IMG/VR virus record: IMGVR_UViG_3300010160_000112
Location: 1 to 38,109 of that record
From: a virus
Length of the DNA stretch: 38,109 bases
Direction: 5' to 3' (one strand)
A program made the translations under genes and the position numbers. The notes beneath the pieces were generated by a model that saw only the letters and a list, made by a program, of their open reading frames with translations, ran no database searches and was not told the DNA's origin. This document shows, one piece after another, positions 2,129 through 29,913 of this stretch; within the stretch, counting starts at the first letter, position 1; every line of letters begins with the position of its first letter.

Positions 2129-2143
2129 GAATTCTCCTGATAT

Positions 2144-2177
2144 GTATTTATTGTAACACATTGTGTGATGTTGTCAA
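2144..2177 (-). promoter_or_regulatory. sigma70-type promoter for gp55 operon, overlapping a late-type box
   Basis: On the minus strand there is an exact -35 hexamer TTGACA (2177-2172), a 16-base spacer, and a -10 hexamer TACAAT (2155-2150, five of six consensus bases). This predicts transcription starting near 2143 and a leader of about 15 bases carrying the AGGAGA ribosome site. The sequence AATAAATA (2152-2145) overlaps the -10 and differs by one base from the T4 late box, so the sigma factor gene could also be read late. This is inference from sequence only; no start site is known. Confidence 0.6.
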
Positions 2178-10093: not shown

Positions 10094-10471
10094 ATGGCAC
10101 AGACATTCATAGGTTTCAATACCATCAACCAGTATAAAAAATTCACTCTCACTGACTTTGAATTGATCAAACGCGATCTTGCCAATGCATTCAATATCCG
10201 ACAAGGTGAACTGCCTGGACGTCCTGACTACGGCACTATAATGTGGAACTTCTTGTTTGAAAATCAAATTGAAGAACTACAGAACAGCATCGTGGCCGAA
10301 GTGCAACGTGTGGCCGGCGGCGACCCCAGAGTGTTTATTTCGGACATACAGGTGTTTCCTGAAGAAAACGGTATCTTGATACAAATAGAAGTCACTGTCA
10401 CGCCATCCACCGATGCCACTCGCCTGGGCATATTTTTTGATATCATAAGCCGACGAGCTAGTTTTGTTTAG
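10094..10471 (+). CDS. 25: gp25-like baseplate wedge subunit (GPW/gp25 family)
   Basis: A 125-residue protein of the GPW/gp25 family: LTDFELIKRDLANAFNIRQGELPGRPDYGT, then WNFLFENQIEELQNSIVAEVQRV and a C-terminal beta part (DIQVFPEENGILIQIEVTV). The conserved short strand with GRPDYGT is characteristic. In contractile injection systems gp25 links the sheath end to the wedge gp6 and seeds sheath assembly. Length is close to T4 gp25 (132). No good ribosome site precedes the ATG; the 20-base gap contains TAAATA only 4 bases before the start. Confidence 0.9.
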   Translation: MAQTFIGFNTINQYKKFTLTDFELIKRDLANAFNIRQGELPGRPDYGTIMWNFLFENQIEELQNSIVAEVQRVAGGDPRVFISDIQVFPEENGILIQIEVTVTPSTDATRLGIFFDIISRRASFV

Positions 10472-10532: not shown

Positions 10533-13500
10533 ATGGCAACAACAACTAGACAAACCGCAATCTTTGGAGTAGAGGACTGGAAACAAATCTACCAGACCTA
10601 CCGCGAAGCCGACTTCCAAAGCTACGACTTTGAGACTCTGCGCAAAAGTTTTGTTGATTATCTGCGCCTGTACTATCCCGAAACATTCAACGATTACATT
10701 GAGTCTAGCGAATTTATCGCGCTGTTGGATGTGATGGCATTCATGGGCCAAGCACTGGCTTTTCGCACTGATCTCAACACACGAGAAAATTACATGGACA
10801 CTGCTGAACGTAGAGATTCAGTAGTTCAATTGGCAAACTTGGTCAGCTACACTGCTAAACGCAATACAGAAGCACAAGGCTTGCTCAAGGTGTTTTCAGT
10901 GGTCACAACAGAAAACGTCACAGACTACAACGGAGTAAATCTCAGCAATGTTACAGTAGACTGGGCAGATCCTACCAATCCTGCTTGGCAAGAACAATTT
11001 ACTACCATCATCAATGCCAGCCTGGTTGATTCGCAAAAAGTGGGTCGCCCAGGAAATCGCCAGACCATCTTGGGTGTGCGTACTGACGAATATGGTATAA
11101 ATCTAGTGCCAGGATTCTTGCCGGTAATCCCTTACACTGCCACAGTGGATGGAATCAACATGCCATTTGAAGCTATGTCCTCTACATCGATGGGCGAAGA
11201 TTATCTCTACGAACCCAGCCCTAAGATAAACCAAGCATTTAACATATTGTTCCGTAATGATCAGCTGGGATTCAACAGCAACAACACCGGATATTTCTTC
11301 ATGTTCAAGCAAGGAGTGTTACAGAATCAAGACTTCAACTTACCTGAACGAATTTCTAATCGTACGGTCAATATCAACATTGATGGTGTTAACGAACAAG
11401 ACCGTTGGTTATTCCAGTTGGACAATGTGGGAAACATCAATCGTGAATGGAAGTTTACAGAAAATGTTTATTCGGCCGCTGCCGAACAACTTGGCACCAG
11501 CCTGCGCCCTATCTTTTCAGTGACCAGTAGAGCTAACGATCAGATCACTTTGGTATTTGGCGATGGGGTTTTCAGTGAAATACCAGTGGGCACATTCCGT
11601 TGCTATGTTCGTGCATCTAATGGATTGCAATATATCATCAACCCTGAAGAAATGCAATCTGTCAGTTTGCCCATCAGCTACATCAGTCGCAGCGGCAATC
11701 TTGAAACTATAACTTTTACTTGCGGTATTACTCAACCGGTCAGCAATAGTCAATCACGCGAACCAATTGCACAGATCAAACAACGTGCGCCTGCTCAGTA
11801 CTACACACAGAATAGGATGGTCAACGGAGAAGATTACAATCTGTTTCCGTATACTCAGTACAACTCCATCCTCAAGAGCAAAGCTATCAACCGTGCCAGC
11901 ATCGGGACCAGTCGGTATCTTGATCTAGTGGACAACACCGGCAAATACAGCTCAACCAATACATTTGGCAGTGACGGCGGCCTGTGGGAACAGAACGTAT
12001 TACCTACCATATTGTTCTCCTGGAATACCAGGAATGAAATCGCAGATGTTATAACAAACCAAGTACAATCAGAATTACTAGCGCCTATTGTCAAGCAGTT
12101 TTACTATGCAAATTTTCCGCGTCAGTCGGTCAATACCGGCACCACCGCATTGAGCACCTGGCAACAAAGTACTACATTGGCCAATCAGACCACTGGATTT
12201 TTCCGTAATAGCACCGTGACCAGTACATGGACCAGTGGTACTCCTATACCAGTAGGCAATGTAGTAAGCATATCTAATCCTTTCTTTTTTGTCACACCAG
12301 GCGCGTTGATAAAATTTGTATCGCCCACAGGATATTACTTTGATCGTAATAATCGACTGGTTCAAGGAACCCCGTCTCGAGCGGACGAAACACTAGAAAT
12401 TTGGGCCAGCCCTCTGCAGGTACTGGGTGACGGATACAACGGAGGATTAGGCAATCTTCCATCGGGTGCCGGACCTGTTACTTTGAACAACTTTGTTCCT
12501 ACTGGGGCCATTGTCGATTCGATTATTCCATTGTTTGTTACTGATTTGCCATTGGACCTCGAAACTGCCATCAGCGAGCAAATTGTATTGTATCGTAATT
12601 TTGGCCTAGGCTATGATAACGATGGATCTGTTACAGGCACACCATATTCTTGGTATCTGATTACTAGTACCAATCTTGATCAGGATGCAGCCTGGAGCCA
12701 GACCGTTCCAGGAGCGGCCGGTAACACCAACGGAGTAAACACCGATGCCAGCTGGATGATACAATTTGTCACAGTGAATCAAAGTTACACTATTACCTTC
12801 CGCGGATTACAATACAATTTTGGATCAGTGCTACAGACAAGATTTTTCTTTTATGAAAATCAACAAATTTATGACAGCCGGACCGGTACGGTGATCAAGG
12901 ATTATGTCAATGTGTTAGCAGTCAATACTCAGCCAGATTCTACAGCACATCTGCCTGGAGACATCCCTGTAACTATTATAGGCCAGCCGGTGGAAAGCGA
13001 TGGATATGTGGACGATTTCCAAGTGTTGGTCAGCTATCGAGATGCAGACAGCGACGGCATTCCTGACAATCCAGATTTTTTTACAGAGATTGTTGCCCCT
13101 ACGGTAAATGCCAACGAAAAATTAGTATTCTTGCAACAGACCGTTGATTTTGACAATCTTCAACGCTATCTATTGGTAGAACGCGGACGAGTAAATTCCG
13201 ACTATGCTACCATAGATGATATTGAATTGGTCAAGAGTGAATGGTCTCCGGGCCAGGTGTTTTATGCCTACGATCAAGACACATTCTACGAACTCAGTAT
13301 TTCTGTAACAGGAGTACGTACACTTGTGGCAGTAACAGGATGGATCGCACGAACAGGTCGACAAGATTTGTACTATCAATATCGTCATAATTCTCCATTG
13401 ACTAACCGTATAGATCCCGGTACTACTAACATCATTGATTTATATGTGATACCTCAATCTTATTATACCGCCTATCAGAATTGGATCAGGGACACTACCA

Positions 13501-14000
13501 ACACTGTACCAAAGCCCAATGTGCCCACCATCGATGAACTCAATACTGCATATCAAGGATTACAAGATTATAAAATGATCAGCGACAACATCATCATCAA
13601 CCCAGTGTCGTTTAAACCAATGTTTGGTATGAAGGCAGCGTCGGAATTACGAGCTACTATAAAAGTGATACGTGCTGCTAACTCCACAGCCAGTACCAGC
13701 GAGATCAAAAGTTCAGTGGTAGCAGAAATGAATAATTACTTCAGCATTGACAAATGGAATTTTGGAGATACCTTCTACTTCTCGGAACTGGCAGCGTACC
13801 TACATCGTATGCTGGGCACAATCATCAGCTCGGTGGTACTGGTACCGTTAAACACACAAAAATCTTTTGGAGACTTGTACGAAGTACGATCAGCACCAAA
13901 CGAATTGTTTGTTAATGCAGCAACAATAGACAACATCGAAGTGATTGAAGCACTTACCAGTACCAATCTGCGTACCGCACCGGGCAGCGGAGTAATTTAA
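10533..14000 (+). CDS. 6: gp6-like baseplate wedge protein (baseplate J family)
   Basis: A 1155-residue protein. The N-terminal 200 residues are strongly typical of gp6 in T4-like phages: FETLRKSFVDYLRLYYPETF, IESSEFIALLDVMAFMGQAL, FRTDLNTRENYMDTAERRDS, LVSYTAKRNTEAQG. The central part has the baseplate-J-like segment (DQITLVFGDGVFSEIPVGTF and IKQRAPAQYYTQNRMVNGEDY). The C-terminus (FKPMFGMKAASELRATIKV, FGDTFYFSELAAYLHRMLG) is also conserved. gp6 dimers form the inner iris ring of the baseplate and couple the wedges during contraction. It is nearly twice the length of T4 gp6 (660), with beta-rich insertions between about 560 and 960. Its stop overlaps the next start (TAATG), pairing it with the giant gp7-position gene. 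Confidence 0.88.
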   Translation: MATTTRQTAIFGVEDWKQIYQTYREADFQSYDFETLRKSFVDYLRLYYPETFNDYIESSEFIALLDVMAFMGQALAFRTDLNTRENYMDTAERRDSVVQLANLVSYTAKRNTEAQGLLKVFSVVTTENVTDYNGVNLSNVTVDWADPTNPAWQEQFTTIINASLVDSQKVGRPGNRQTILGVRTDEYGINLVPGFLPVIPYTATVDGINMPFEAMSSTSMGEDYLYEPSPKINQAFNILFRNDQLGFNSNNTGYFFMFKQGVLQNQDFNLPERISNRTVNINIDGVNEQDRWLFQLDNVGNINREWKFTENVYSAAAEQLGTSLRPIFSVTSRANDQITLVFGDGVFSEIPVGTFRCYVRASNGLQYIINPEEMQSVSLPISYISRSGNLETITFTCGITQPVSNSQSREPIAQIKQRAPAQYYTQNRMVNGEDYNLFPYTQYNSILKSKAINRASIGTSRYLDLVDNTGKYSSTNTFGSDGGLWEQNVLPTILFSWNTRNEIADVITNQVQSELLAPIVKQFYYANFPRQSVNTGTTALSTWQQSTTLANQTTGFFRNSTVTSTWTSGTPIPVGNVVSISNPFFFVTPGALIKFVSPTGYYFDRNNRLVQGTPSRADETLEIWASPLQVLGDGYNGGLGNLPSGAGPVTLNNFVPTGAIVDSIIPLFVTDLPLDLETAISEQIVLYRNFGLGYDNDGSVTGTPYSWYLITSTNLDQDAAWSQTVPGAAGNTNGVNTDASWMIQFVTVNQSYTITFRGLQYNFGSVLQTRFFFYENQQIYDSRTGTVIKDYVNVLAVNTQPDSTAHLPGDIPVTIIGQPVESDGYVDDFQVLVSYRDADSDGIPDNPDFFTEIVAPTVNANEKLVFLQQTVDFDNLQRYLLVERGRVNSDYATIDDIELVKSEWSPGQVFYAYDQDTFYELSISVTGVRTLVAVTGWIARTGRQDLYYQYRHNSPLTNRIDPGTTNIIDLYVIPQSYYTAYQNWIRDTTNTVPKPNVPTIDELNTAYQGLQDYKMISDNIIINPVSFKPMFGMKAASELRATIKVIRAANSTASTSEIKSSVVAEMNNYFSIDKWNFGDTFYFSELAAYLHRMLGTIISSVVLVPLNTQKSFGDLYEVRSAPNELFVNAATIDNIEVIEALTSTNLRTAPGSGVI

Positions 14001-17000
14001 TGGCCACTATACGTTCGGTAGATTTACTCCCACAAATATTTCAAACTGATACCAACAAGCAGTTCTTGGCTGCCACTTTGGATCAACTCACACAAGAACC
14101 ACAGTTCAAGAAAACGCAAGGGTTCATTGGGCGCACAGTAGGTCCGGGAGTCAATCCCAATGACACATATGTGGTAGAGCCGGATGCCACGCGACGAGAT
14201 TATCAACTTGAGCCGGGTGTGGTCAGTTTAGTTCCTGACACCAACACTATCAAAAATGCTATTACCTATCCGGGTATCAACGATGCTGTGGGATTCAGTG
14301 GCGGCGATAGCACACGCCCTGACAGACTGTATGAGAGTGAGTATTACACCTGGGATCCATTTGTAGAGTTCGATTCGTTTGTGAACTTCAGTCAATATTT
14401 TTGGTTACCGTCGGGCCCGGATCCTGTGGATGTGGCAGCATCTACCATACCTACTACTGATAATTTCATAGTTGATCGTGAAAATGGAGTGTATACATTT
14501 TCCGGAGTTACCGGCAACGACCCGGTTATAGATCTTGTGCGCGGTGGCAGCTATACTTTTCAGGTAGCTCAGAATACCAAAGAAACAGTGAATTATCGTG
14601 TGGGTAATTCTGGCACTGCTGCATATCTAATAGACGGATTAAGCAATCCGGCACTTACGCTTGCTCGCGGTAATACCTATGTGTTTAATTTGGTGTTCAA
14701 CGGAGATTTTCCGTTCTGGATCAAAACTGCACCAGTTACTGGAGTAGGCGATGTATACAACACAGGCGTCACAAGAAACGGCGCGCTGACTGGATTAGTT
14801 ACTTTTACTGTGCCACAAGATGCGCCGGATACATTGTACTATGCAAGTCAAACACAATTGAACATGCAAGGTACATTGAATATCATTGATGGCACACCGG
14901 GCACCGGAGCAGGATTTTGGATACAAGCATCACCGGGAGTAAATGGTCGAGACCCGTCTAGCCCAAACATCAGTTCGAGAGATGTACTGGGCGTATTCAA
15001 CAACGGTACAGATCTTGGCACCGTGACTTTCAATGTGCCACTGAAAACTGCACAGAATTTTTATTACTCGCTAACCCCATTTGGCGTCAACCCCAGCGGA
15101 ACTATTATCACCCCTGTTGATTTGATTTGCGATCTTAAATTTGATGAGATCAACAACAAGCAAGTGGATGAATTCTTGGCCGTATACGGCGGCATTGATG
15201 GCACCGCCAATCTCAATGGTCGTACACTAGTATTCACTGAACCGGTAACCGATGCCGAAGCCGGTGGATGGCAAGTGACTACGTTTTTTGATCCATTGGA
15301 AGAATCAAGCGCAAACAATTTCCTAGTAGGTAGCTTTGACACTACATTTTTCAGCCAGACAACCGATGTTGCGCCCGAAGACCGGTATCAATTATGGCAA
15401 ATCAATTATGTCACGGTCAATAATTACACCTTCATGTCCTTGAGCAAGATCTCTGACATCCCGGCGCTAAACAAATTTACCGCAAGATACGGAGCTCAAT
15501 ACAGCAACACACAATGGTACAAAACAGCCGCTGGGTTATTTGAACGAATTCCATTGTTGACTGCGGCACAAGACACTTTGTATTATCAAGATGGTACTGA
15601 TCCTGAAATCTTTGGTCGTATACGTCTAATAGATCAGTCTGCTAATACCACTCTGTACATTGATTCTATCTTGGGCCAACCTAATTATACCAGTCCAACT
15701 GGTGTAGTTTTTACCAATGGCCTCAAAGTAAAATTCATTGGTGATGTAGTCCCGTCCACATATGCATCTGGAACCTTTCCGTTAGTGATCACTGCCGCAC
15801 AGGCCGGCAGCAATTATCTCACAACCGAATCTACCGCTAATCTTTACGTCAACGAGCAGATCATATTCACCGAAAGTATTGGTGGTATATTACCAGGAAC
15901 ATATTACATCCAGAGTATCGCAGCGAATGGTATACAATTCAGTATCAGCACCAAAAAAGGCGGCGGCGCCTATCCTTTACAACCTGGTACAGTAACTGGT
16001 GTTACTGCAACTGTCAACAGCGATCTAGAATACTACGTAAGCGGTGTAGGAACAGCGATTGAATTATTGTTGGTTGATATTTTTGTCACTCCCGAATCGT
16101 ATCTAGTAGATGCTAACGATAGCACCATCTACGTTGAACCAGGCTCTACAGATTATCTTACCATCGACCGGGCCAGCCGTGACCGCAATGCGTGGAGCCG
16201 TAGCAATCGCTGGTTCCATTCAGACGTTATCAACGCTACTGCAACATACAACAACGCCACAGCCACATTTGATAACAATTATCGAGCCAAGCGACCCATC
16301 ATCCAGTTCCGTCCAAATATCAAACTATGGAACATGGGCACCGAAGGCAAGGATCCGGTTGATATTATTGATTTTTCACAAACTGATGCATTCAGTAATG
16401 TGGTGGGGTCTACTGAATATACTGTAGATGGGTATACCTTTATAGACGGCAGCCGAGTGGTATTTGCTGCGGACGCTGATCAATCTGTAAAGAACAAGAT
16501 ATATGTGGTATCATTCATTGTGCCGGATACTGTGGCTCCGTTGATTTCGCAGCCTATCATCAATCTGACACCAGCTGAAGATGGAGAAGTGCTGACTGAT
16601 CAATGCACTATCTGTTTGAATGGCTCAACAACCGCAGGTGTTACATTTTGGTTTGATGGCACAGCATGGATTGAAGCACAACAAAAAACTTCAGTACAAC
16701 AGGCTCCGTTGTTCAATGTATACAACCCTGACGGATATAGCTTCGGTGATCGGGCAGTGTATCAAAGTTCTACATTCTCGGGTAGCAAATTGTTTAGTTA
16801 CGCAGTAGGAGACACCAACATTATTGATCCGATATTGCAATTTCCTTTGCAATACCTCAATATCAACAACGTAGGAGACATTGTCTTCAACAATGATTTA
16901 TACAAAGACACTTTCTTGTATGTGGTCGATAATGCTAGTGTGACATTGGATATCAGCTCAGGATCTGTCAGAGAGTATGGAACTCGTGCAACTTATCAAC

Positions 17001-20000
17001 GCCTAATTGGCTGGCAAACTGCGATCACAACAAGTCAGACCTACCAACAATTTAAATTTGAATACACTGGCGCCACACTCAAACTGGATGTCAAAGTTAA
17101 CGCTCCAGTAAACAACACACCTGCGATTAAAATATACGTAGGATCAGTATTTCAGGCGCCGGGCAATTACAGCTATATTACTGGTGCCAACAGCACAGTA
17201 ATCACATTAAACAATACCTATGTGCCAGGTGATATCATTGAAGTATTGGTGTTAAGCGACCAGCCCAGTGCTACAGCATTTTATCAAGTTCCTATCAATC
17301 TGCAGAATAACCCATTGAATGGAAATAGTCCAGAATTCACACTGGGTACCATACGAACACATTATGAAAGCATCTGTCAGAATCTGTTGACAATTCAAGG
17401 ACCGGTCAACGGCTCCAACAACACCAGAGACCTTGGCAACATAGTGCCTTATGGACTGACTATTTTGCAACAAAGTGCGCCAATGACGCTGGCTGGATAT
17501 TTCTTGCGTTCAACGGACTACAATATTTTTGCATCGTTGAGTTTTGCCGCCAGAGAATATAACAAATACAAATATCAATTGTTAGATGCTGTGACGCAGC
17601 AAACAATTGGGTTTGAATCCATAGGTCAGGTCCTGGACACTGCAATACAAGATGTCACTCTAGGTCGAGTGGAATCACAACCATTTTACTGGTCAGATAT
17701 GCTACCGTTTGGTGCAGTATATACCACTACGACTTACAACATTGAGTACACCATAACAGATTCGTTTGACACGGTTCAAGTTTATAACTATCGGACGGCA
17801 AATTATCTAGGCATGAATGTGTACCTAAATGGAGTATTGTTAACAAGAGATCGTGACTATGTGGTAGCCGCCGACGGCCCACGTGTGACTATTCTCCAGG
17901 ATTTAACATTTGGCGATCAATTGATTTTCCAAGAATACAGCGCCACATATGGCAGCTTTGCTCCTAATACTCCTACTAAATTAGGATTGTATCCAGCATT
18001 TGTGCCGCAGGTGATCACGCAAAAAGCCAGCAACGGATTGGTGCAGGTCACACAAGGACACGACGGATCGATCACTCCGTTGTTCAATGACATACGTGAT
18101 CAGGTGTTGTTGGAGTTTGAAACTAGAATATATAACAATCTCAAGCTAGATGGAAATCCTGTTCCGTTGACCATTGACGATGTGTTGCCCGGACAATTCC
18201 GTGACACAGGATTCACTTACGCAGAAATTACTAACATATTGAATCAAGATTTCTTGAGTTATGTAGGTGCTAACAAACTTGATTTTCGTGCTCAAGATTT
18301 TCGTGCTACCAATGAGTTCACATGGAACTACAGCGGTGCACAGAATAAATTAAACAACACACAAAACTTATTGGGTGCCTGGCGCGGTATCAATCGTTAC
18401 TTCTATGACACTGAACAGCCACAATACACTCCTTGGGAGATGTTGGGATTTAGTAAACAACCTCTCTGGTGGGAAGATACATATGGCCCAGCACCATACA
18501 CCGGCGATAACTTGGTGTTGTGGGACGACCTAGCAGCAGGTTATGTGGCCGATCCTATACAACCATACTTCCGGCCAGAATATGCACGTCCAGCAAGCAT
18601 TGGCTCGTCGGACGAACCACCTCGTGGAGGAATCTGGGGAGCAGGTCCGTATCCTTCTTTGCTGCCAATCATACCAACTGGTGACGAGGGGCAACTATTA
18701 AGCCCGGCTCAAAGTGTGATGGGAACATATGCATCTGCACAATTCCAGAAGAGTTGGGCACCCGGAGACGGCAGCCCTGTAGAAGCATCGTTCTGGAACA
18801 GCTCTAGTTACCCATTTGCAGTGATGCATGTGCTGGCAGTGACTCAGACTGCTAAGTTTTTTGCACTGTTTGCCGATCGTGACCTGTATCGATACAATGA
18901 AGAATTTGGGCAATACTTGCTGAATGATCGTTATCGTTTGAATGCCAACGGCATTGAAGTATACGGTAACGGGGTTAGCAAAGCTAGCTACATTGACTGG
19001 ATCGTTGATTACAACCGTCAGGCCGGTATTAATTCCACTGATGAGCTGACTGCAGACCTAGCCAATCTTGACGTGAGATTGTGTTATAGAATGGCCAGCT
19101 TTTCCGACAAGCAATACATTAAGTTGTTTACGGAAAAATCCAGTCCTAATTCTACCAATACTGCATTGTTAATTCCGGATCAGAGTTATAATCTACTGCT
19201 GTACAAAAATCAACCATTTGACCGTACTAGTTATTCAGCAGTGGTCATACAGATAGTGCCCGGCGGATATGCCATGTATGGGTACAACACATCTCAACCA
19301 TATTTCAACATAATAGCCAGTAAATCCACCGGCCAGTTGCGAACAATCACATCCGGTGGAGCCACAGTACAAGTACCCACTTTCTATACTGATACAATAG
19401 TACAGATACCGTATGGATTTATATTTGCCAACGAAACAAGTGTTTGCGATTTTTTCTTGAGCTACGGAAAATACTTAGAAAAGCAAGGTATAGTTTTTAC
19501 TGATCGTGCCAACGGATACACACTAGATTGGTTGCAGATGTGTAACGAGTTCTTGTATTGGAGTCAGCAAGGCTGGGGCGAAAACGCTCTGCTGAATCTG
19601 AATCCATTGGCAGGTAAACTTTCTGTGACTCGTGAGCAAGCGGTAGTAGATAGCATAGTTGTACAAGCCATAGACAATGTGCTGTTGGATCAAAACAATC
19701 GAGAATTGCCCACACGCAATCTCAATATCACACGGATCGACAATACCTTTACTTGCGAACCGTTGACTACCCAGACTTTGAGTTTTATTGATCTGAAATA
19801 TACCACACACGAACACATGATTGTGCTAGACAATCAGAGTGTGTTTGGTGATTTAATTTATCAACCTATCACCGGAGCACGTCAGAGCCGCTTGGTGTTG
19901 GTGGCCGCCAACACTGACAATTGGACTGGGCAGATTAACACCCCAGGTTTTGTTCTTAATCTAAACAACGTGGAAGAATGGTCGGGATTAAAACGCTATA

Positions 20001-23000
20001 CCAAAGGACAGATAGTAAAATACAAAAATGTGTATTGGAGCGCATTGAACATTATACAACCAAGCAACCGATTTGATTTTAATGACTGGGTGCAAAGCGA
20101 TTACACACAGATTGAATTGGGTCTACTGCCTAATCTGGCCAACAAAGCAAATCAATTGGCCAACAGTTATAATATTAATTCTGCCAATCTTGAAAGTGAT
20201 AACGATCTATTGAGCTATGGATTGATTGGGTTCCGTCCTCGGCAATATATGGCCGCACTGAACCTAGACGACGTGAGTCAGCTGAATGTGTATCGACAAT
20301 TCCTAGGATCCAAAGGAACCATACTCAGTGCAGAGCTATTTTCCAATGCCAATCTTGGAAAAGAAGCAGCAGACTACAGCATCTATGAAAACTGGGCGGT
20401 ACTGCGCTCAACCTATGGGGCTAATGCCAATCGTAGTTTTGTTGAACTTAGACTAAACAAAGCCTATCTGGCCAGTGATCCGAGTGTGGTGCAAGTTGTA
20501 TTACCCCAGCAGGTGAGTGCAGCCGACCAACAGATCTTGTTAAGCGATGTATGGAAACAAAGTTATAAGTTAACTTCTACCGATTTTTTGCCTACCACTA
20601 CAACTTTACCTACTGACATAGGATTGCCCACGGCTGGATATGTGAATTTAAATGATGCTGATATCACAGTATTTGATGTCAACGACCTAGGAAACATTGC
20701 TGCCAATCTTGATGCTATTGCTGTTGGAACATCAATATGGATGGCAAAGATAAATGATTACGATTGGAATATCTATCGTGCGCAAAGTGTGCCGGGCACA
20801 ATACAGCATGTATGCGATAACCTAGATGGCACCAGCAGAGTTATATTCAGTCTACCGCATGGGTTGTCGGTTGGGGATACCCTGATTATCAAGTTTTTTG
20901 ATACCGAAGTCAATGGTGTCTATGAAGTGATGAGCGTACCAAACATAACCACAGTAAACATTGCGTTCCAATTTACCAGCCGCCGTACTGTGGCAGATGG
21001 CATCGGATTAGGCTTCACACTACAAACCATGCGTGTGGCGCAAGCGTCGGACGTTATCAACTTGCCATATGCAGATGATATCGCAGCAGGGTCGATTGTT
21101 TGGGTGGATAATAACGGTGCCGATCTATGGGAAGTGATACAAAAACAAGAAGTATTTTCAGGTTCAACACAAATTAGTCCGATACTGTTAGACGCTGGGG
21201 AACAATATGGGTCAGCAGTGGCCCAGGCCAACTCACGATCAGCATTGTTTGTGGGTAGCCCACGATATGGGTTTGGTACCGGAACTGAATCGGGTGCAGT
21301 ATATGTGTATGTTAAAAACTCTGGAGACACATATTCTCCAGTGAGTCCAATTGCTGATGCAGACGGCATCCTTACATTGGGTGCAACCGGAGTTCGTGCA
21401 TATGGCAACGCTGTAGATTTTGGTAATCAGACCTGGGCAGTGGTGGGTGCTAGCAAAAGCCTTGGCCCTGCCAGTCAGACCAACAATGGTTATGCTGCGA
21501 TAGTTTATCGAGACCCGGTGCTGGGTCAGCCTGGCATCAATCCGTTTACCAATTGGCAATTGCTAACATTACCTGGTACAACCACAACAACTACTCCTGG
21601 CGCAGGGGAATTTGGATACTCAGTGACTATGAGTCCAGATGAGCGCTGGGCATACATTGGTGCTCCTGGATTGAATACAGTATATGCATATGGTCAAGTG
21701 CCGTGGCAAGATCAATATGTTAGTGTATTAGGCAACGGCATCACAAAACAATTTACGATTGCCAGTGAAATACAAATCAACAACAGCAGTCAGCTCAGAG
21801 TCACATTCAATGGGCAACCTCAGATCTCAGGATACTCTATTGATGCAGCATTTGACAAAGTCACATTTACCACTGCACCCGCAGCCGGTGTACTTGTAAA
21901 ATTCCAACGTATCAGCTCACAACAACTAGATGCGCAGACTTATTATGAAGTACCGCAAACATCTACCAGCGGCAGCGGGGTCGGCGCAAAATTTACAATA
22001 ATAAGAGTTCGAGGACAAGTAGGTCAGCCAGGGTCAACCACCGGCGGAGTCGGTGCTACGTCTCTAGGGTCAGGATATGCAGTAGGAAATACCATCACTA
22101 TTGCTGGTGCTAGCTTTGGAGGCACCAACAATATTACTCTCACGATAACATCAATTGGAACCGGCGGCACACTAGGCAACTTTACTATTGCGTACACTGC
22201 ACCGGCATTGACAACGGTGTTTTCGTTGAATGAATATTTCTTTACTGCCACAAACATCTATAGTTTCAGCGTTCAGGTCAACGGAGTGTTATATCGTCCC
22301 AACATAGATTATAGTTTTAGCACAGCCACACAAGATTTAACATTCACCGGAACTGGGCCACCGTCGGGCACTGTGATCATTGTGACAGCAATGAGTTATT
22401 TCACCTATGTTAATTCTTTCACCGTTGCCGGCTTAGGCGGCTCAGATAGATTTGGTCATTCAGTATCATGCACCACAGATGGCCGCCAGATAATGGTCGG
22501 TACTCCGTACAGCACAGAAAGCAGCCAGGTTGAAGCTGGATCTGTGTATGTGTTTGACCGTAATGTACAACGCTTTATCTATGGCGAAGATGGGTCAACT
22601 GTGACATTCACTTTGTTAGGCACGCCAGTGGCTCCTATCAGTGTTATTGTTAATAATGTATTCTTGACCAATCAGGCCGATGGCGTGGTCGGAGCAGCAA
22701 ATACTTTCTATTGGAATGGTGCTAACACAGTAACAATCAATGCTGATTTACAATATGGTGATGTGATTGAAATTGAAACCAATCAATTCTCACAGATCCA
22801 AGAAATTGCACAAAACACTGTGGCTAATTTCTCAAATTTTGGGCAGAGCATTGACATCTGCTCTAATAATTGCAGTCTGTACGTGGGTGTACCACAAAGC
22901 AGTGAACAGGTGTACAAAGGCGGAGTGGTTGAGCGTGATGTAAATCAAAGCCGTGTTTACGGCACTACTACATCGACTGCTGCTAATGCAGTACTCACTG

Positions 23001-26000
23001 CTGGAAATACCTTGCGTGTGAACAACATGGATGTGGTAGTACCTACTACATGGAGCAGTCTGAGTTCTTACAATAAGAATGATGTAGTTTATAATTTGTC
23101 AGGTAGCACATACACAATTTATGTGGCATTGCAAGCGGTTCCTGTTTCTACTGCATTGAGCAATGCAAGTTATTGGTCTGTGGTTACTACAACCACAACC
23201 GCAGCCAGTATCTATGTCCGTGCGTTGGCCGCACAGATAAACAGCACAGTACCAAATGTCAGTGCCACGGTTGATGCCAGTGGCTATCTGACCATAGCTG
23301 TTAAGAATAGCAATTCTGCAACTGCGTTTAATAAACTGCAAGTGGCACCTGGGTCAGTTGGCACAGCATTTACCACATTGGCATTCAAGACATTTGTGTT
23401 TACACAAACCATACTCAGTCCTTATCCAGTAAAATATGCTGCGTTTGGATACAGTGTGAGCATCGCAGATACTGCTACTACACTAGCAGTAGGTGCACCG
23501 AATGGTACTTTGTATTTGATAACCGTGTTTGATGATGGTACCACAGACTTTGATGCCGATAGTACTACATTTATCACCACCGTAAACAATAGTGGTGCTG
23601 TATACACTTATGATTACTTGCCCGGAGCAAACATGAGTGTGTCAAATCCTGGCAACTTTGTATTTGGTCAGCAAATAACCAATAGTGAGATCAGCGAACT
23701 TGATTCGTTTGGTGCTGCAATCACTTACATAGATGGTGTATTGGTAGCAGGCGCGCCAAACAATGACGTTGGCGACAGCTCAGCAAATTACGGTCGGGTG
23801 TTTGTGTTTGAAAATCCAGACCGTCTGAGTGCCTGGAAAGTGATACGCCAGCAACAGCCAGCAGTGGATGTGAGATTGCTCAATGGGGTATTCACATACG
23901 ATCGGATTACCAGTGCTACTACGCAATTCTTTGACTTCTTTAATCCGTTACAAGGCAAGATATTAGGCGCTGCAAGACAAAATATTGATTACATCAGTGC
24001 GCTTGACCCTGCAAATTACAATATTGGACCGACCAGCATCAATGGTGCTACCTGGTGGTCAGGGCATGTGGGAGAAGTATGGTGGGATACCAGCACGGTG
24101 AGATTTATCGATCCCAATCAAGATGACGTAACCTACGCCAGTCGACGTTGGGGACAAATTTTTCCTGGCAGTACAGTAGAAGTATATCAATGGGTCTTGA
24201 GTGCTGTGCCACCATCTAGTTACACCGGCCCCGGAGTACCGTATAGTACCACAAGTTATAGTATCAATTCACGACTTGACCGGGACGGCGTATTTGCCAC
24301 TGAGTATTATTTCTGGGTACGAGGAATAACTACCACGGCTGTTCAGCAAGGAAAAACACTCAGCATAGCAACAGTAGCACAATACATTGAAAATCCTCGC
24401 GCCAGTGGCATAACTTACATCGCACCAATCAATGCCAGCACCATTGCTTTGTATAATGCTGCTGAATACATAGTGGCATCGGATACTGTGATTAACATAT
24501 CATTTGACCGAGAAGCCACTGAGAGTAATGTACACACTGAATACGAATTAATAGCCGAAGGCAAGCCCGACGCGTTCTTGAGCACTAATCTTTACCGTAA
24601 ACTGCAAGACAGCTTCTGCGGAGTTGACACATTTGGTAACAATGTGCCCGACCCTAATCTCGGACCAGCTGAGCGTTACGGGGTGCAATTTAGACCTCGT
24701 CAGAGCATGTTCACCAACAGATTCAGTGCTCTTGAAAACTATCTCACAAGAGTTAACAATGTGTTAGCCCGGTTTCCGATCTCAGAAAGCCGCAGTTTTA
24801 ATCTGCTTAACAGCGCCGAACCGGAACCTAGTGCAGCCACCGGCCTGTGGAATTTACGTGTGGCTAACTTGGAAATCTTAGGGTTCCAAAATATCTACAC
24901 TGTGCCAATCGGTTATCGTTATCTAGTGGTAACCGACAGTGATAATCGCGGTCTATGGACGATTTACACAGTAACAGATAGTGACCAAGTTGCTGGTGAC
25001 CGCCTGTTGAGATTGTCATTTGTGCAAGGATACAATACTGCTGATTATTGGAGTTATATTGACTGGTACCTTCCAGGATACAATTCCAGCAGTAAAGTTC
25101 TAGCAGAAATTACCAATACTGCAGGGTTGAGTACATTAGATGTACCAGTGGGCAGCAGTGTACGAATCACTGCTAATGCACAAGGTAAATGGGAAATATA
25201 TCTGTTGAGTGACACTGGTTGGGATCGTGTAGGATTACAAGATGGCACTATTGCATTCTCAGCTGAGCTATGGGATTATCAATTAGGCAGATTTGGGTTT
25301 GACATTGAAGTTTTTGACGCACAATATTATGATCAAGAACCTGTGAAAGAAACAAGAAAAATTATTCAAGCCATCAATGAAGAACTATTGATCGACGATC
25401 TTGCCATTGAGAGAAATCGTGCATTGATCTTGATGTTTAATTATGTGTTGAGCGAATTCTCTGCACCTGACTGGTTGGTTAAAACCAGCTTGATTGATGT
25501 GGATCACCGCATACGAGATCTTGCTCCGTATCAAAATTATCGTCGAGATAATCAAGAGTTTGTGATTGATTACATAAAAGAAGTCAAGCCATATCATGTT
25601 CAATTGCGCGAATTTAATCTGCGATATAATGGACTGGATCAATTCCTTGGAAGCCTTACTGATTTTGATGTGCCGGCCTACTACAACACTTCGCTGACTG
25701 TTCCCCAATACACCAGTCCTATATTATTACCTTACGAGCACGGTTCTTCAGATATTTCTAACTTCCTAAGTGATTTGCCGGCCAACAGCACGGTGTGGAA
25801 CACTTTTCCATACACTCAGTGGTATAACAATTATCTATTGACACTGACAGATGTATCAATGGTCGACAATGGAACTGGTTATACTGAACCTCCGTTGGTG
25901 ATAATTGGAACTGCGTGGACTAGTAATACTCCAGTGACTATTAATCAACAATTATTTTACGCTAATAATAATGTGACTAATCTGTATACTGTGGTAGCAG

Positions 26001-26233
26001 ATGGCATAACCGGCATGGATCCGCCAACTTTTACAACCGCTGGCAACCAAACTGATGGTACAGCTACACTGACGTATACTGGGCTAGCGGCGCAGGCCAC
26101 TGCGGTGATCAACAGCCTAGGTCAGGTAGTAGCGGTCAATGTAACTTATTCTGAAGCGTATATCGATCGACTCCTGAGATATCATTCACAGGCGGTGGCG
26201 GCATTGGGTCAGGCGCTAGAGCGTATGCTCTGA
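14000..26233 (+). CDS. giant multi-domain baseplate/tail protein in gp7 position (4077 residues, apparently truncated by a frameshift)
   Basis: A 4077-residue ORF. The N-terminus (LLPQIFQTDTNKQFLAATLD, ESEYYTWDPFVEFDSFVNFSQYFWLPSGPD) is shared with the large proteins found after gp6 in aquatic T4-like phages; direct similarity to T4 gp7 is not visible. Domains seen: a cupredoxin-like domain (about 211-299); several VNG...DY beta modules (near 1045-1090, 1275-1315, 2600-2640, 2760-2800, 2880-2930); a conserved mixed core (about 1590-2200, containing FWNSSSYPFAVMHVLAVTQTA); a carbohydrate-binding-like module (1994-2034); and a seven-blade FG-GAP propeller (2403 to about 3275) with modules inserted between blades. 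Translation ends abruptly in a Gly-rich module, and the matching remainder continues in another frame, so the 3' end is probably not native. Expected location is the outer baseplate. Confidence 0.75.
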   Translation: MATIRSVDLLPQIFQTDTNKQFLAATLDQLTQEPQFKKTQGFIGRTVGPGVNPNDTYVVEPDATRRDYQLEPGVVSLVPDTNTIKNAITYPGINDAVGFSGGDSTRPDRLYESEYYTWDPFVEFDSFVNFSQYFWLPSGPDPVDVAASTIPTTDNFIVDRENGVYTFSGVTGNDPVIDLVRGGSYTFQVAQNTKETVNYRVGNSGTAAYLIDGLSNPALTLARGNTYVFNLVFNGDFPFWIKTAPVTGVGDVYNTGVTRNGALTGLVTFTVPQDAPDTLYYASQTQLNMQGTLNIIDGTPGTGAGFWIQASPGVNGRDPSSPNISSRDVLGVFNNGTDLGTVTFNVPLKTAQNFYYSLTPFGVNPSGTIITPVDLICDLKFDEINNKQVDEFLAVYGGIDGTANLNGRTLVFTEPVTDAEAGGWQVTTFFDPLEESSANNFLVGSFDTTFFSQTTDVAPEDRYQLWQINYVTVNNYTFMSLSKISDIPALNKFTARYGAQYSNTQWYKTAAGLFERIPLLTAAQDTLYYQDGTDPEIFGRIRLIDQSANTTLYIDSILGQPNYTSPTGVVFTNGLKVKFIGDVVPSTYASGTFPLVITAAQAGSNYLTTESTANLYVNEQIIFTESIGGILPGTYYIQSIAANGIQFSISTKKGGGAYPLQPGTVTGVTATVNSDLEYYVSGVGTAIELLLVDIFVTPESYLVDANDSTIYVEPGSTDYLTIDRASRDRNAWSRSNRWFHSDVINATATYNNATATFDNNYRAKRPIIQFRPNIKLWNMGTEGKDPVDIIDFSQTDAFSNVVGSTEYTVDGYTFIDGSRVVFAADADQSVKNKIYVVSFIVPDTVAPLISQPIINLTPAEDGEVLTDQCTICLNGSTTAGVTFWFDGTAWIEAQQKTSVQQAPLFNVYNPDGYSFGDRAVYQSSTFSGSKLFSYAVGDTNIIDPILQFPLQYLNINNVGDIVFNNDLYKDTFLYVVDNASVTLDISSGSVREYGTRATYQRLIGWQTAITTSQTYQQFKFEYTGATLKLDVKVNAPVNNTPAIKIYVGSVFQAPGNYSYITGANSTVITLNNTYVPGDIIEVLVLSDQPSATAFYQVPINLQNNPLNGNSPEFTLGTIRTHYESICQNLLTIQGPVNGSNNTRDLGNIVPYGLTILQQSAPMTLAGYFLRSTDYNIFASLSFAAREYNKYKYQLLDAVTQQTIGFESIGQVLDTAIQDVTLGRVESQPFYWSDMLPFGAVYTTTTYNIEYTITDSFDTVQVYNYRTANYLGMNVYLNGVLLTRDRDYVVAADGPRVTILQDLTFGDQLIFQEYSATYGSFAPNTPTKLGLYPAFVPQVITQKASNGLVQVTQGHDGSITPLFNDIRDQVLLEFETRIYNNLKLDGNPVPLTIDDVLPGQFRDTGFTYAEITNILNQDFLSYVGANKLDFRAQDFRATNEFTWNYSGAQNKLNNTQNLLGAWRGINRYFYDTEQPQYTPWEMLGFSKQPLWWEDTYGPAPYTGDNLVLWDDLAAGYVADPIQPYFRPEYARPASIGSSDEPPRGGIWGAGPYPSLLPIIPTGDEGQLLSPAQSVMGTYASAQFQKSWAPGDGSPVEASFWNSSSYPFAVMHVLAVTQTAKFFALFADRDLYRYNEEFGQYLLNDRYRLNANGIEVYGNGVSKASYIDWIVDYNRQAGINSTDELTADLANLDVRLCYRMASFSDKQYIKLFTEKSSPNSTNTALLIPDQSYNLLLYKNQPFDRTSYSAVVIQIVPGGYAMYGYNTSQPYFNIIASKSTGQLRTITSGGATVQVPTFYTDTIVQIPYGFIFANETSVCDFFLSYGKYLEKQGIVFTDRANGYTLDWLQMCNEFLYWSQQGWGENALLNLNPLAGKLSVTREQAVVDSIVVQAIDNVLLDQNNRELPTRNLNITRIDNTFTCEPLTTQTLSFIDLKYTTHEHMIVLDNQSVFGDLIYQPITGARQSRLVLVAANTDNWTGQINTPGFVLNLNNVEEWSGLKRYTKGQIVKYKNVYWSALNIIQPSNRFDFNDWVQSDYTQIELGLLPNLANKANQLANSYNINSANLESDNDLLSYGLIGFRPRQYMAALNLDDVSQLNVYRQFLGSKGTILSAELFSNANLGKEAADYSIYENWAVLRSTYGANANRSFVELRLNKAYLASDPSVVQVVLPQQVSAADQQILLSDVWKQSYKLTSTDFLPTTTTLPTDIGLPTAGYVNLNDADITVFDVNDLGNIAANLDAIAVGTSIWMAKINDYDWNIYRAQSVPGTIQHVCDNLDGTSRVIFSLPHGLSVGDTLIIKFFDTEVNGVYEVMSVPNITTVNIAFQFTSRRTVADGIGLGFTLQTMRVAQASDVINLPYADDIAAGSIVWVDNNGADLWEVIQKQEVFSGSTQISPILLDAGEQYGSAVAQANSRSALFVGSPRYGFGTGTESGAVYVYVKNSGDTYSPVSPIADADGILTLGATGVRAYGNAVDFGNQTWAVVGASKSLGPASQTNNGYAAIVYRDPVLGQPGINPFTNWQLLTLPGTTTTTTPGAGEFGYSVTMSPDERWAYIGAPGLNTVYAYGQVPWQDQYVSVLGNGITKQFTIASEIQINNSSQLRVTFNGQPQISGYSIDAAFDKVTFTTAPAAGVLVKFQRISSQQLDAQTYYEVPQTSTSGSGVGAKFTIIRVRGQVGQPGSTTGGVGATSLGSGYAVGNTITIAGASFGGTNNITLTITSIGTGGTLGNFTIAYTAPALTTVFSLNEYFFTATNIYSFSVQVNGVLYRPNIDYSFSTATQDLTFTGTGPPSGTVIIVTAMSYFTYVNSFTVAGLGGSDRFGHSVSCTTDGRQIMVGTPYSTESSQVEAGSVYVFDRNVQRFIYGEDGSTVTFTLLGTPVAPISVIVNNVFLTNQADGVVGAANTFYWNGANTVTINADLQYGDVIEIETNQFSQIQEIAQNTVANFSNFGQSIDICSNNCSLYVGVPQSSEQVYKGGVVERDVNQSRVYGTTTSTAANAVLTAGNTLRVNNMDVVVPTTWSSLSSYNKNDVVYNLSGSTYTIYVALQAVPVSTALSNASYWSVVTTTTTAASIYVRALAAQINSTVPNVSATVDASGYLTIAVKNSNSATAFNKLQVAPGSVGTAFTTLAFKTFVFTQTILSPYPVKYAAFGYSVSIADTATTLAVGAPNGTLYLITVFDDGTTDFDADSTTFITTVNNSGAVYTYDYLPGANMSVSNPGNFVFGQQITNSEISELDSFGAAITYIDGVLVAGAPNNDVGDSSANYGRVFVFENPDRLSAWKVIRQQQPAVDVRLLNGVFTYDRITSATTQFFDFFNPLQGKILGAARQNIDYISALDPANYNIGPTSINGATWWSGHVGEVWWDTSTVRFIDPNQDDVTYASRRWGQIFPGSTVEVYQWVLSAVPPSSYTGPGVPYSTTSYSINSRLDRDGVFATEYYFWVRGITTTAVQQGKTLSIATVAQYIENPRASGITYIAPINASTIALYNAAEYIVASDTVINISFDREATESNVHTEYELIAEGKPDAFLSTNLYRKLQDSFCGVDTFGNNVPDPNLGPAERYGVQFRPRQSMFTNRFSALENYLTRVNNVLARFPISESRSFNLLNSAEPEPSAATGLWNLRVANLEILGFQNIYTVPIGYRYLVVTDSDNRGLWTIYTVTDSDQVAGDRLLRLSFVQGYNTADYWSYIDWYLPGYNSSSKVLAEITNTAGLSTLDVPVGSSVRITANAQGKWEIYLLSDTGWDRVGLQDGTIAFSAELWDYQLGRFGFDIEVFDAQYYDQEPVKETRKIIQAINEELLIDDLAIERNRALILMFNYVLSEFSAPDWLVKTSLIDVDHRIRDLAPYQNYRRDNQEFVIDYIKEVKPYHVQLREFNLRYNGLDQFLGSLTDFDVPAYYNTSLTVPQYTSPILLPYEHGSSDISNFLSDLPANSTVWNTFPYTQWYNNYLLTLTDVSMVDNGTGYTEPPLVIIGTAWTSNTPVTINQQLFYANNNVTNLYTVVADGITGMDPPTFTTAGNQTDGTATLTYTGLAAQATAVINSLGQVVAVNVTYSEAYIDRLLRYHSQAVAALGQALERML
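14630..14895 (+). other. cupredoxin-like domain lacking copper ligands (within giant protein)
   Basis: Residues about 211-299 follow the cupredoxin-like pattern common in phage virion proteins: NPALTLARGNTYVFNL, a PFWIKTAP strand, GVTRNGALTGLVTFTVPQDAP, then LYYASQTQLNMQG. Copper-binding relatives have HPFYIKT and LYYQCxxHxxM. Here the ligand positions are F237 (for His), S283 (for Cys), Q286 (for His) and M289, so only Met is kept and metal binding is unlikely. Confidence 0.6.
21206..23830 (+). other. seven FG-GAP repeats: predicted integrin-alpha-like beta-propeller with inserted modules
   Basis: Seven blade signatures appear in the giant protein at residues 2403 (YGSAV...ALFVGSPR), 2468 (YGNAV...WAVVGAS), 2538 (FGYSV...WAYIGAP), 2818 (FGHSV...IMVGTP), 2947 (FGQSI...LYVGVP), 3149 (FGYSV...LAVGAP) and 3237 (FGAAI...LVAGAP), most followed by a G-x-V-Y-V-F strand. 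Seven is the number needed to close an FG-GAP propeller. Spacing is tight for blades 1-3 and 6-7 but larger for 3-4 (280 residues), 4-5 (129) and 5-6 (202), where other beta modules are inserted. The calcium-type DxDxDG loops of integrins are not evident. Confidence 0.72.
26150..26158 (+). other. apparent one-base frameshift joining the two giant ORFs
   Basis: The 4077-residue frame reads VNVTYSEAYIDRLL and stops at 26233. The frame one base back is open from 26155 and reads SVYRSTPEISF then TGGGGIGSG, the natural ending of the same Gly-rich module (compare NGTGYTEPPLVII about 90 residues earlier). Adding one G after 26153 (tctgaagc to tctggaagc) restores SGSVYRSTPEISF exactly in register. 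There is no X-XXY-YYZ slippery heptamer, so a missing base (sequencing or real) is more likely than programmed shifting. Confidence 0.72.
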
Positions 26234-26364
26234 TAACTCCAGGTCTGGCCCGAAGTTTCAAAACCACAATCAAATATGACAGGTTCCAATACTTCAGTGA
26301 TGTTCGAGACTGGAACCCAAGTGGCACATATCCTGATGGGCAACTGGTACGATATGACGATCGT

Positions 26365-29142
26365 GTGTGGCAAGCTGCCAGCACAGATTCCACTGCGGTA
26401 GTAGGCCCTGACTTTAATCTTGAAGATTGGACATTGATACCGGCCAAAGATTTAACCGGTGTGGACCGTACTATGGGTCTATATGTGGCCGGCGTAGATC
26501 AACCAGGATTAGATTTGCCATTGTTGATTGACGGTGTTAACTACCCCGGAGTTCAAGTGTATGGTAATTATTTCACAGGAACAACCCCTGAAGATGCTGC
26601 ATACGCTAGCTCGTTTACTGATACAACATTGGGTCAAACATATAGTAGTATCAATGTAGATGGCGGCGAATTCATTGGATTGTACGAAGGTCATGCTCCT
26701 GAAGAATTAGTAAATGGTGCCGAATTTGATACCTTGGACATGCGTGTGTACACTCGTCCAGGCGCAGATTGGAACAGGGATGGACACGGATTCCAATTAG
26801 CAGATCTTCGTTATCAATATAATGCTGCTGTAACAAATGTCTTCAGCTGGGCCGGATTGGTAGACAATCCTGTGGGCATATTTGTGACCAACACCACAAC
26901 AAATCTACCACTATCACTCAACATCGATTATACTGTGAATTGGATATTACAAACTATTACTCTACTCACAGTAGCAAATGGAAATATCATCAGCATTGCT
27001 GCGTTTGAAATTGGTGGCGGCAGTCAGTTGTATCGTACAAATATAGTAGGCAATGATACAAACACTACCATAATACCGGTTAATGCTGCGGAAATAATCG
27101 ACTTGGCAATATTTGTCAATGGTGCACCTGTCAGTGGAGCATCGTGGGATCCGTATATTGACAGCACTGACTGGAATCAGCTGAATAGTTATTCTAAATT
27201 AGATGTGGTCAACTCCACCGACGGTAGTACAATGGAAACTTACTATCGAGCACTACGTGATGTGCCAGCAGGCATAGATATTGCTAATGCTACTTATTGG
27301 ATAGAATTTACCCCTACGTTAGAATCGATAGTCGATTTAGGTGCAGTTTATACCAACACCGATGCTATCGCATTGACTGCATTTGGTGTGACCACGATCG
27401 ATGCTGGATATTTTGTCATTGGCAGACAATACACTATAACGCAAGTAGGAACAACTAATTTTGTGGCCATTGGCGCTGGTGCAAACACAATAGGAACGGT
27501 GTTTACAGCCAGCGGAGTAGGATCGGGCACTGGAACAGCTTCTACAGTATATGGATGGAGTGTGCCGCAGACTCAATATATCATTGCTGATTCTAATTTT
27601 GTTACATTTAAATCTACCACATTAACTAATTCTGTGCAAGGTAGCAATTTAGCCAATATGATAGTCACACGCAATGGATTGAGATTGCAACCCCCCGAAG
27701 GGCGTGAATGGATCAGTGATGGTAGTTCATTGGCATACAGTTTGCCCACACGCGGCGGCTATAGCCAGGCAATTGTAAACGCCACTACAGATGTGATTGT
27801 GTGGGTTGATAATATACTACAACAACAAAGCATCGGTGGAGTACCGGGTGTGTACAGCGTGACTCCGTACGTATCTGCAAATGATCGCGATGTGGTGTTC
27901 AATGTGGCTCCGCCTGTTGGTGCCCGTATATTGATCACAGTAACTACTCAAGCAGGTTATCAGTTGGCAGGTACTACGTTACAAATTGTAGGAGGTGTAA
28001 ATCTTAATGATTTGTTCGCAGTTACTACATTTAATGATACTTCACAGCAGTATCCGTTAACACTGGTATTCAACGGCCCTGTGATTACCGGTGTGGTCGA
28101 GCAAGACCCATTTGATCCGTTGCCAAATGAGGCAGCATACAACAACCAACCAGGCAGCTTTGATTATGCCACAGTCAATAACACTCAATGGAGTTTTGAT
28201 TACAGCGTAGGCACTGCGGTATATGACAATCAATTCTGGTTAGAGCGTGCAGGCGTCAATGCTGCCAGATTATGGGTCACGTTGGATGGTTATGCATTGA
28301 CCAACAGTATAGATTACAGCGTGGAAGGTGAATATCTGATACTAGCATCCGGTGCTATCCAGCCAAATCAAATAATGGCAATCACCGAAGTCACTGACAG
28401 TATTGTTCCGGACGCAATGGCATTCCGTATATTCCAAGACATGCGCGGAGTTCAGGCCACATATCGTATCACTCATGAAACTACCACAACCTTGACACAG
28501 TCATTGACCGCAGATGCTGATATAGCATATGTGGAAGATGCTCTTGCATTAGGACAGCCTAATCTGGACATTGGTGTTTTTGGGGTATGCACAATCGACG
28601 GTGAGCGTATCATGTACAGAAGTATTAATGCGGCCAACAATACATTATCGGGATTGATGAGAGGTACTGCTGGGACAGCAGCAGCAGACCACGATACTGG
28701 CACAGCAGTTTATGACCTAAGTCGTGGAAATCTACTACAAAGTGACTACCAGGATTATATCGTATCTGACACCAGCCTCGGAGATGGATCTACTACTGTA
28801 TTTTATGCTCCAAGCATAACTCCTGGTGACTTTGTTGATAGTGCTAGCGAAGCACCTGCAATAGAAGTATATGTAGCCGGTATCCGCCAATACGCATACA
28901 GTGACACTACTGCCACCAGCCAATATCGTTGGTTTGTGACTGATTTTGACCCGTTGGCTGTGGATTTTGTTGTTGATGACACTGCATATCCACCGTTGTT
29001 GCCACCTGTACCTAATGTAGAAGTCACAATACTGGTACGTCAGGGTGTGACTTGGTATCAACAAGGAGCAACCACACCTAGCGACGGAATTGCATTGCAA
29101 GATACCGATACAGTCGCTGCAAGGTTTTTACGTGGTTTATAA
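26365..29142 (+). CDS. C-terminal continuation of the giant baseplate/tail protein (separate ORF by frameshift)
   Basis: As a free ORF this would start at GTG 26365 (925 residues), but there is no ribosome site, the GTG lies inside a domain (YDDRVWQAAS), and the frame is open back to 26155 with no other start. It is therefore probably the end of the upstream giant gene. Modules: carbohydrate-binding-like W...Y...V...W segments (26311-26433 and 27172-27306); a widespread phage tail module GRQYTITQVGTTNFVAIGAG with GTVFTASGVGSGTG (27421-27540); several VNG/DY-type beta modules (near 26880, 27110, 27800, 28270, 28868); and a GERIMYRSI...LSGLMRGTAGTAAADH module (28600-28695) frequent in phage tail proteins. 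The product ends TVAARFLRGL before a 19-base gap. Role: periphery of the baseplate or host-contact surface, by inference. Confidence 0.7.
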   Translation: MWQAASTDSTAVVGPDFNLEDWTLIPAKDLTGVDRTMGLYVAGVDQPGLDLPLLIDGVNYPGVQVYGNYFTGTTPEDAAYASSFTDTTLGQTYSSINVDGGEFIGLYEGHAPEELVNGAEFDTLDMRVYTRPGADWNRDGHGFQLADLRYQYNAAVTNVFSWAGLVDNPVGIFVTNTTTNLPLSLNIDYTVNWILQTITLLTVANGNIISIAAFEIGGGSQLYRTNIVGNDTNTTIIPVNAAEIIDLAIFVNGAPVSGASWDPYIDSTDWNQLNSYSKLDVVNSTDGSTMETYYRALRDVPAGIDIANATYWIEFTPTLESIVDLGAVYTNTDAIALTAFGVTTIDAGYFVIGRQYTITQVGTTNFVAIGAGANTIGTVFTASGVGSGTGTASTVYGWSVPQTQYIIADSNFVTFKSTTLTNSVQGSNLANMIVTRNGLRLQPPEGREWISDGSSLAYSLPTRGGYSQAIVNATTDVIVWVDNILQQQSIGGVPGVYSVTPYVSANDRDVVFNVAPPVGARILITVTTQAGYQLAGTTLQIVGGVNLNDLFAVTTFNDTSQQYPLTLVFNGPVITGVVEQDPFDPLPNEAAYNNQPGSFDYATVNNTQWSFDYSVGTAVYDNQFWLERAGVNAARLWVTLDGYALTNSIDYSVEGEYLILASGAIQPNQIMAITEVTDSIVPDAMAFRIFQDMRGVQATYRITHETTTTLTQSLTADADIAYVEDALALGQPNLDIGVFGVCTIDGERIMYRSINAANNTLSGLMRGTAGTAAADHDTGTAVYDLSRGNLLQSDYQDYIVSDTSLGDGSTTVFYAPSITPGDFVDSASEAPAIEVYVAGIRQYAYSDTTATSQYRWFVTDFDPLAVDFVVDDTAYPPLLPPVPNVEVTILVRQGVTWYQQGATTPSDGIALQDTDTVAARFLRGL

Positions 29143-29161: not shown

Positions 29162-29311
29162 ATGTCAACTACAACGCCAACTAAGCCAGCTACTCCTGTA
29201 CCCGCCCAGCGGCCAAACAAACCCAACGAAAGCGGAACAATTTCGGTGCAAGCACATATGAGGATTTTTGATCCTAAAACACAAAAAACCTATGTGGAGG
29301 GACGAGCATGA
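29162..29311 (+). CDS. small protein (49 aa) resembling the N-terminus of the downstream virion protein
   Basis: ATG at 29162, 49 codons, TGA at 29309-29311. Residues 1-25 are Thr/Pro/Lys-rich and probably disordered. Residues 27-49 (ISVQAHMRIFDPKTQKTYVE) line up with residues 8-30 of the next gene (CKIEGFVKIHDPNSGKILVD): the shared pattern is I-x-x-x-x-x-(R/K)-I-x-DP-x-x-x-K-x-x-V. The stop falls where the homologous segment of the neighbour continues into its main domain, and the stop overlaps the next start as ATGA. It may be a partial duplication or a small partner protein of the neighbour. Coding is supported by the fit between two genes (19-base gap before, 4-base overlap after) and by the similarity itself. 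No ribosome site is obvious. Confidence 0.68.
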   Translation: MSTTTPTKPATPVPAQRPNKPNESGTISVQAHMRIFDPKTQKTYVEGRA

Positions 29312-29913
29312 TCACGCCTGGGCTATGTAAAATTGAAGGGTTTGTAAAAATACACGATCCTAATTCTGGCAAAATTCTAGTAGATAAAAAGAACGCTATC
29401 CATTATGAAAACATTTCGATCGCGATGGCGCAGACTCTGAGCAACAGGGATCTAGGATATATCTATCAGATGGCATTTGGCAACGGCGGCAGTTCGGTTG
29501 ATCCCACTGGAGTGATCACATATTTGCCGCCGAACACAACAGGGCAAAACGCAGATTTGTACAATCAAACCTATCAGAAAGTAGTAGATGATAACTCAGC
29601 TGCTGATACTGATCCTGTGAATAACAAAATGACCGTGCTGCATACATCCGGTAATCTCTATACTGATATTCTGGTCAGTTGCTTACTGGATTACGGCGAG
29701 CCCCCTACCCAGCAAGCGTTTGACAATTCAACCAATTTTAATGGTGAATATGTGTTTGATGAACTAGGGCTCAAATCTTGGAACGGCGCATCAGACAATT
29801 TACGATTGATCACTCATGTGATTTTTCACCCGGTGCAAAAAAGTCTAAATCGGCAAATACAGATTGACTACACCTTACGAATCCAGACATTGACTAACAT
29901 CAATGCTGTATAA
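29308..29913 (+). CDS. conserved virion structural protein of aquatic T4-like phages, function unknown
   Basis: A 201-residue protein with the sequence blocks IEGFVKIHDPNSGKILVDKKNA, AFGNGGSSVDPTGVITYLPP, NTTGQNADLYNQTYQKVV, SCLLDYGEPP, EYVFDELGLKS and HVIFHPVQKSLNRQIQIDYTL. These are recognisable as a family recurring between the large gp7-position gene and the fibre genes in aquatic T4-like phages. The location next to wedge genes would suit a gp8-like or fibre-attachment role, but no similarity to T4 gp8 is visible, so the role is not assigned. The start ATG overlaps the stop of the 49-residue gene; AGGGACG lies 6 bases upstream. The stop codon is inside a TATAAATA late box. Confidence 0.65.
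   Translation: MITPGLCKIEGFVKIHDPNSGKILVDKKNAIHYENISIAMAQTLSNRDLGYIYQMAFGNGGSSVDPTGVITYLPPNTTGQNADLYNQTYQKVVDDNSAADTDPVNNKMTVLHTSGNLYTDILVSCLLDYGEPPTQQAFDNSTNFNGEYVFDELGLKSWNGASDNLRLITHVIFHPVQKSLNRQIQIDYTLRIQTLTNINAV

Follow-up and report, generated by a model that had tools for sequence, protein, structure and literature searches.

Does the stretch between positions 14000 and 29142 of an IMG/VR virus record hold one giant gene interrupted at a single base, two separate genes, or a gene whose frame truly changes in the phage? The record, a single metagenome-assembled one of 38109 bases whose full length is the window analysed here, carries on its forward strand a first open reading frame that starts at an ATG, extends over 14000–26233 (4077 residues) and loses its frame near 26153, and a second one that, as called, starts at a GTG and occupies 26365–29142 (925 residues). 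The frame of the latter opens earlier, at 26155, immediately after a TGA, and runs to 29142 with no ATG, GTG or TTG between 26155 and 26365; both frames and the missing start codon had been reported in a preliminary description of this DNA and hold. The whole span, at 15143 bases, would need one more to make up 5048 codons. Read as one unit, it comprises a first part at 14000–26154 (about residues 1–4052), a site of one-base loss within 26140–26165 that is private to this record, and a second part in the frame one base back at 26155–29142 (995 residues and the stop codon); the remainder of the first frame up to its TGA, at 26155–26233, is an out-of-frame overhang that encodes nothing conserved. 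We favour, with a probability of roughly three in four, the reading in which 14000–29142 is one baseplate-associated giant gene of about 5047 residues, the frame change being private and most probably an indel introduced in assembly or sequencing, and the full-length protein most likely being made.

The genes of the record are those of the baseplate region of a T4-related jumbo myovirus. They include a small wedge-like gene at 3975, a gp5-like hub/lysozyme gene at 6857 and, on the forward strand, a gp25-like baseplate wedge gene (10094–10471, phrog_43) and a T4 gp6-like baseplate wedge gene (10533–14000), which lies directly 5′ of the giant gene and overlaps its start with its own stop. On the 3′ side follow, on the same strand, a conserved gene for 201 residues (29308–29913, phrog_11259), with a gene of equal length in the same place in phage PAC2, and a gene for a 670-residue virion/tail-fibre-like protein (29942–31954) in the position annotated as gp10-like in PAC2. 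Those other genes of the record that were compared with close relatives have the same length and keep their open frame.

Three further features of this neighbourhood deserve mention in their own right. The gene after the 201-residue one (29942–31954) encodes 670 residues here, whereas 1238 codons are open in one relative (L004:13578–17273), which part of the gene matches twice, as in an internal duplication or module insertion. The genes at 36129–36653 and 36542–37600 share 112 bases read in different frames, and since the overlap is kept in another relative (L007) it is not a frameshift error. A late sigma factor gene (1220–2161, reverse strand, phrog_12791), with 92–98% identity in relatives, stands beside the baseplate genes on the opposite strand.

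The giant gene belongs to a known family that is already represented in cultured jumbo phages. Its first part matches the PHROG 10938 profile (E 1.6e-293, 978 bits) in four stretches over the core, and it adjoins the gp6-like wedge gene, as do the PHROG 10938 relatives. A single uninterrupted gene is usual in these relatives rather than part of the profile definition, and although the gene is broken in the analysed record, its membership in this family of Rak2/Atu_ph07/PA5oct-type jumbo phages, as judged by homology, stands despite the private break. The giant frame would encode a baseplate-associated virion protein of a jumbo myovirus of this kind. By their wedge and giant proteins, the nearest cultured phages are Atu_ph07, Phosso, PA5oct/PAC2/MIJ3 and 121Q/PBECO4 with their relatives, and SCTP-2 was matched through its wedge protein.

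In Atu_ph07 (‘structural protein’ AUZ94962.1, 4449 residues) and in the Sinorhizobium phages Phosso (4555 residues) and AP-J-162 (ORF 58, 4455 residues; PMC11242549), a single giant gene with a homologous core directly follows the gp6-like wedge gene; these three proteins are about 25% identical to ours overall, shorter and unbroken. Mass spectrometry has confirmed most of the structural proteins predicted for Atu_ph07, and CDS 170–215 are covered by one of its virion-protein clusters (PMC6102473). The Pseudomonas phages PA5oct, MIJ3 and PAC2 share with the record the order of gp25-like, gp6-like, giant, 201-residue and gp10-like genes as well as the homologous core, but their giant protein, which in PAC2 has 3857 residues and is annotated as a chitin-binding type-3 domain protein, is about 29% identical, some 1200 residues shorter and uninterrupted. 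In Escherichia phage 121Q and its relatives, the homologous core is found in gp582, 3′ of the gp6-like wedge gene; annotated with 9972 bases and yielding 3333 residues from its longest ATG frame, the 121Q gene is likewise uninterrupted and is missing large portions of the N-terminal and middle regions. The giant gene also takes the place, after gene 6, of T4 gene 7, which encodes a baseplate wedge protein of 1032 residues. Profile comparisons covering residues 651–1501 and 3271–3901 gave probabilities of 0.2 and 0.6% for a relation to T4 gp7; over these stretches no sequence similarity to gp7 was detected.

The continuity of the gene was judged on 101 loci, collected from about 90 different contigs in two scans of the IMG/VR viral_contigs. 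In each locus it was checked whether the homology extends across two or more open frames. This was flagged in four of them, in no case at the site corresponding to the break, and the relatives that reach the junction carry one uninterrupted frame, in agreement with the earlier proposal of one gene of about 5047 residues. Both sides of the break are co-linear and free of gaps against single relative proteins, at 86–89% and 82–84% identity, so the change of frame is not a product of chance. That one continuous gene has been broken by one missing base is therefore strongly supported. A second, independent gene initiated at GTG 26365 is extremely improbable: the GTG is in frame, but no ribosome-binding site lies upstream of it, it falls inside a CBM5/12-like module, the 70 codons before it are as constrained as the rest, and the relatives, none of which is split into two genes at this site, refute it. 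A degenerate 35-base pattern made from the record's own sequence retrieved no same-species record from viral_contigs.

The size of the reconstructed protein, which had been described as exceptional, is ordinary for the clade. Three closest relatives that were fetched in full have 5046, 5004 and 5046 residues, more distant full-length ones 4760–4900, and in some partial relatives the frame stays open for at least 5241 codons, which makes about 5047 residues a usual length in this group; the single genes of the cultured phages encode 3333–4555 residues.

At the site itself, an alignment with seven close-relative loci places a net gap of one base in the analysed record only, so that the break is a missing base, as first proposed, and not a natural gene boundary. 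The residues suggested for the repaired junction, S-G-S-V-Y-R-S, need correction, as close relatives read S-D-A-V-Y-R-S-T-P across the break; more distant ones have a G-S-G-Y-R-S motif in what is apparently the same place. Programmed −1 ribosomal frameshifting, which would give both the 4077-residue and the full-length form, would agree with the direction of the frame change and with the overlap of the two frames. It is nonetheless largely refuted, and we regard it as exceedingly unlikely, because the overlap contains no slippery heptamer of the form X XXY YYZ and in the relatives a single frame codes for the whole protein, so that no shift is conserved. Only weak, short internal repeats occur within the giant gene and none at the break, and the collapse of an internal repeat was rejected as its cause.

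Codon constraint is as strong after the break as before it, and this holds for the 70 codons before GTG 26365 too. Against the relative L002, third-position differences dominate on both sides: by first, second and third codon position, the counts are 438/192/1564 upstream of the break, 8/7/36 for the 70 codons from 26155 to the GTG, and 135/83/440 after the break, with pN of about 0.08–0.10 and pS of about 0.66–0.76 for the two sides. In the 26 codons that run on out of frame to 26233, the differences spread over all three positions (15/21/24). Counted at sites where three outgroups agree and the record alone departs, its own changes amount to 30 of 1664 before and 3 of 330 after the break, similar to the figures in relatives. 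This lack of relaxation implies that in-frame translation of the downstream part either lasted until very recently or continues.

These counts bear on the main rival, a real and very recent frameshift in some or all of the sampled genomes, leaving a truncated, probably defective protein that keeps the core and lacks about the last 990 residues. The most conserved parts of the protein, at about residues 700–2250 and 3300–3890, end before the break, and the truncated product would retain them; the absence of a homopolymer of 4 or more bases at or near the site also suits a mutation. Against it stand the complete absence of a trace of relaxed constraint 3′ of the break, the retention of the C-terminal part in relatives and the position of the break, which cuts a predicted folded domain. 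As the break is private and the downstream frame unrelaxed, a technical error is likelier than the truncated product that had been envisaged for the phage, and we consider the recent mutation unlikely, though it is far ahead of the two-gene and programmed-frameshifting readings.

Breaks in assembled records of the giant gene are not rare, four of the 101 other loci (L082, L042, L071 and L099) being interrupted at other places. One lacks about 170 bases of the gene (L082:7149–7150) relative to an intact locus (L081:6979–7150) to which the rest of it is 99.99–100% identical, and this deletion looks like an assembly error. Two loci from different samples, 99.4% identical to each other, lack the same stretch of about 150 bases compared with L075, a deletion that breaks the frame (near 3711 in L042 and near 3735 in L071), and each is broken privately at one more point. 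In the fourth, the gene is open except for a single in-frame TGA (L099:8879–8881). Breaks of this sort, such as that of L082 beside its near-identical intact counterpart, count for a technical origin of ours, and their frequency, together with the absence of decay, favours a technical error over a recent mutation. Two points weigh against it: technical indels commonly arise at homopolymers, which the site is not, and the inspected breaks are deletions of about 150–170 bases or an in-frame TGA and thus differ in kind from the loss of one base. On balance, the one-base loss near 26153 would be a technical indel in the record, with the full-length protein of about 5047 residues most probably being made in the phage population.

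Structure prediction gives a partial view of what the break divides. A model of the junction, built from an intact relative (L113) and its own relatives (mean pLDDT 65.7), contains a well-predicted β-domain at model residues 67–201, in which the break would fall between two strands, at about residue 171–174. Just 3′ of the break, at 26302–26376 on the forward strand, lies a CBM_5_12-like (chitin-binding type 3) motif, PF02839, within which GTG 26365 falls; with E values of up to 1 admitted, 42 of 46 relatives match it (best E 4.3e-07), and the score of the reference member, 17.2, stays below the Pfam cut-off of 26.2. Modules farther downstream resemble T7 fibre/tail adaptor and chitin-binding domains at Z of about 6–7, a level that can reflect a common arrangement alone.

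The core, which bears on a possible fold in common with T4 gp7, was modelled poorly by AlphaFold (pLDDT 50.5), with small β-modules alone matched in structure comparison. Its best neighbours are small tail-fibre adaptor domains, such as that of TSP4 of phage CBA120 (Z 8.8, rmsd 1.7 over 64 residues), a match too weak for a function to be assigned. In Foldseek searches, a single hit to the core model fell below 0.001, namely 8es4_F (HRP29 tail); the junction model had none. By sequence, the first part of the protein matched no solved structure and the second gave chance-like matches alone.

What is established on function is thus membership in PHROG 10938 and synteny with the gp25-like and gp6-like wedge genes. 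Taken with family matches that are weak and structure matches of middling quality, on which the functional reading is based, this suggests that the intact protein is a wedge-bound, multi-module peripheral baseplate protein built from β-modules that are attached to the wedge. Its C-terminal part would carry adsorption or glycan-binding modules and, with its CBM5/12-like and fibre-adaptor-like modules, putatively helps to hold adsorption parts or to bind glycans. Should the frameshift be a real on/off switch in the population, which we think very unlikely, some virions would lack the C-terminal adsorption modules and the population would be mixed in host binding.

For users of such data, the break means that gene callers will list two proteins for this record, one of them from a false GTG inside a module, and that, owing to breaks of this kind, split tail genes will be overcounted in metagenome assemblies. 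Irrespective of the break, this family of baseplate proteins of 3300 to more than 5000 residues, for which our sequence searches found no solved structure, carries modules that resemble glycan-binding domains and merits a solved structure.
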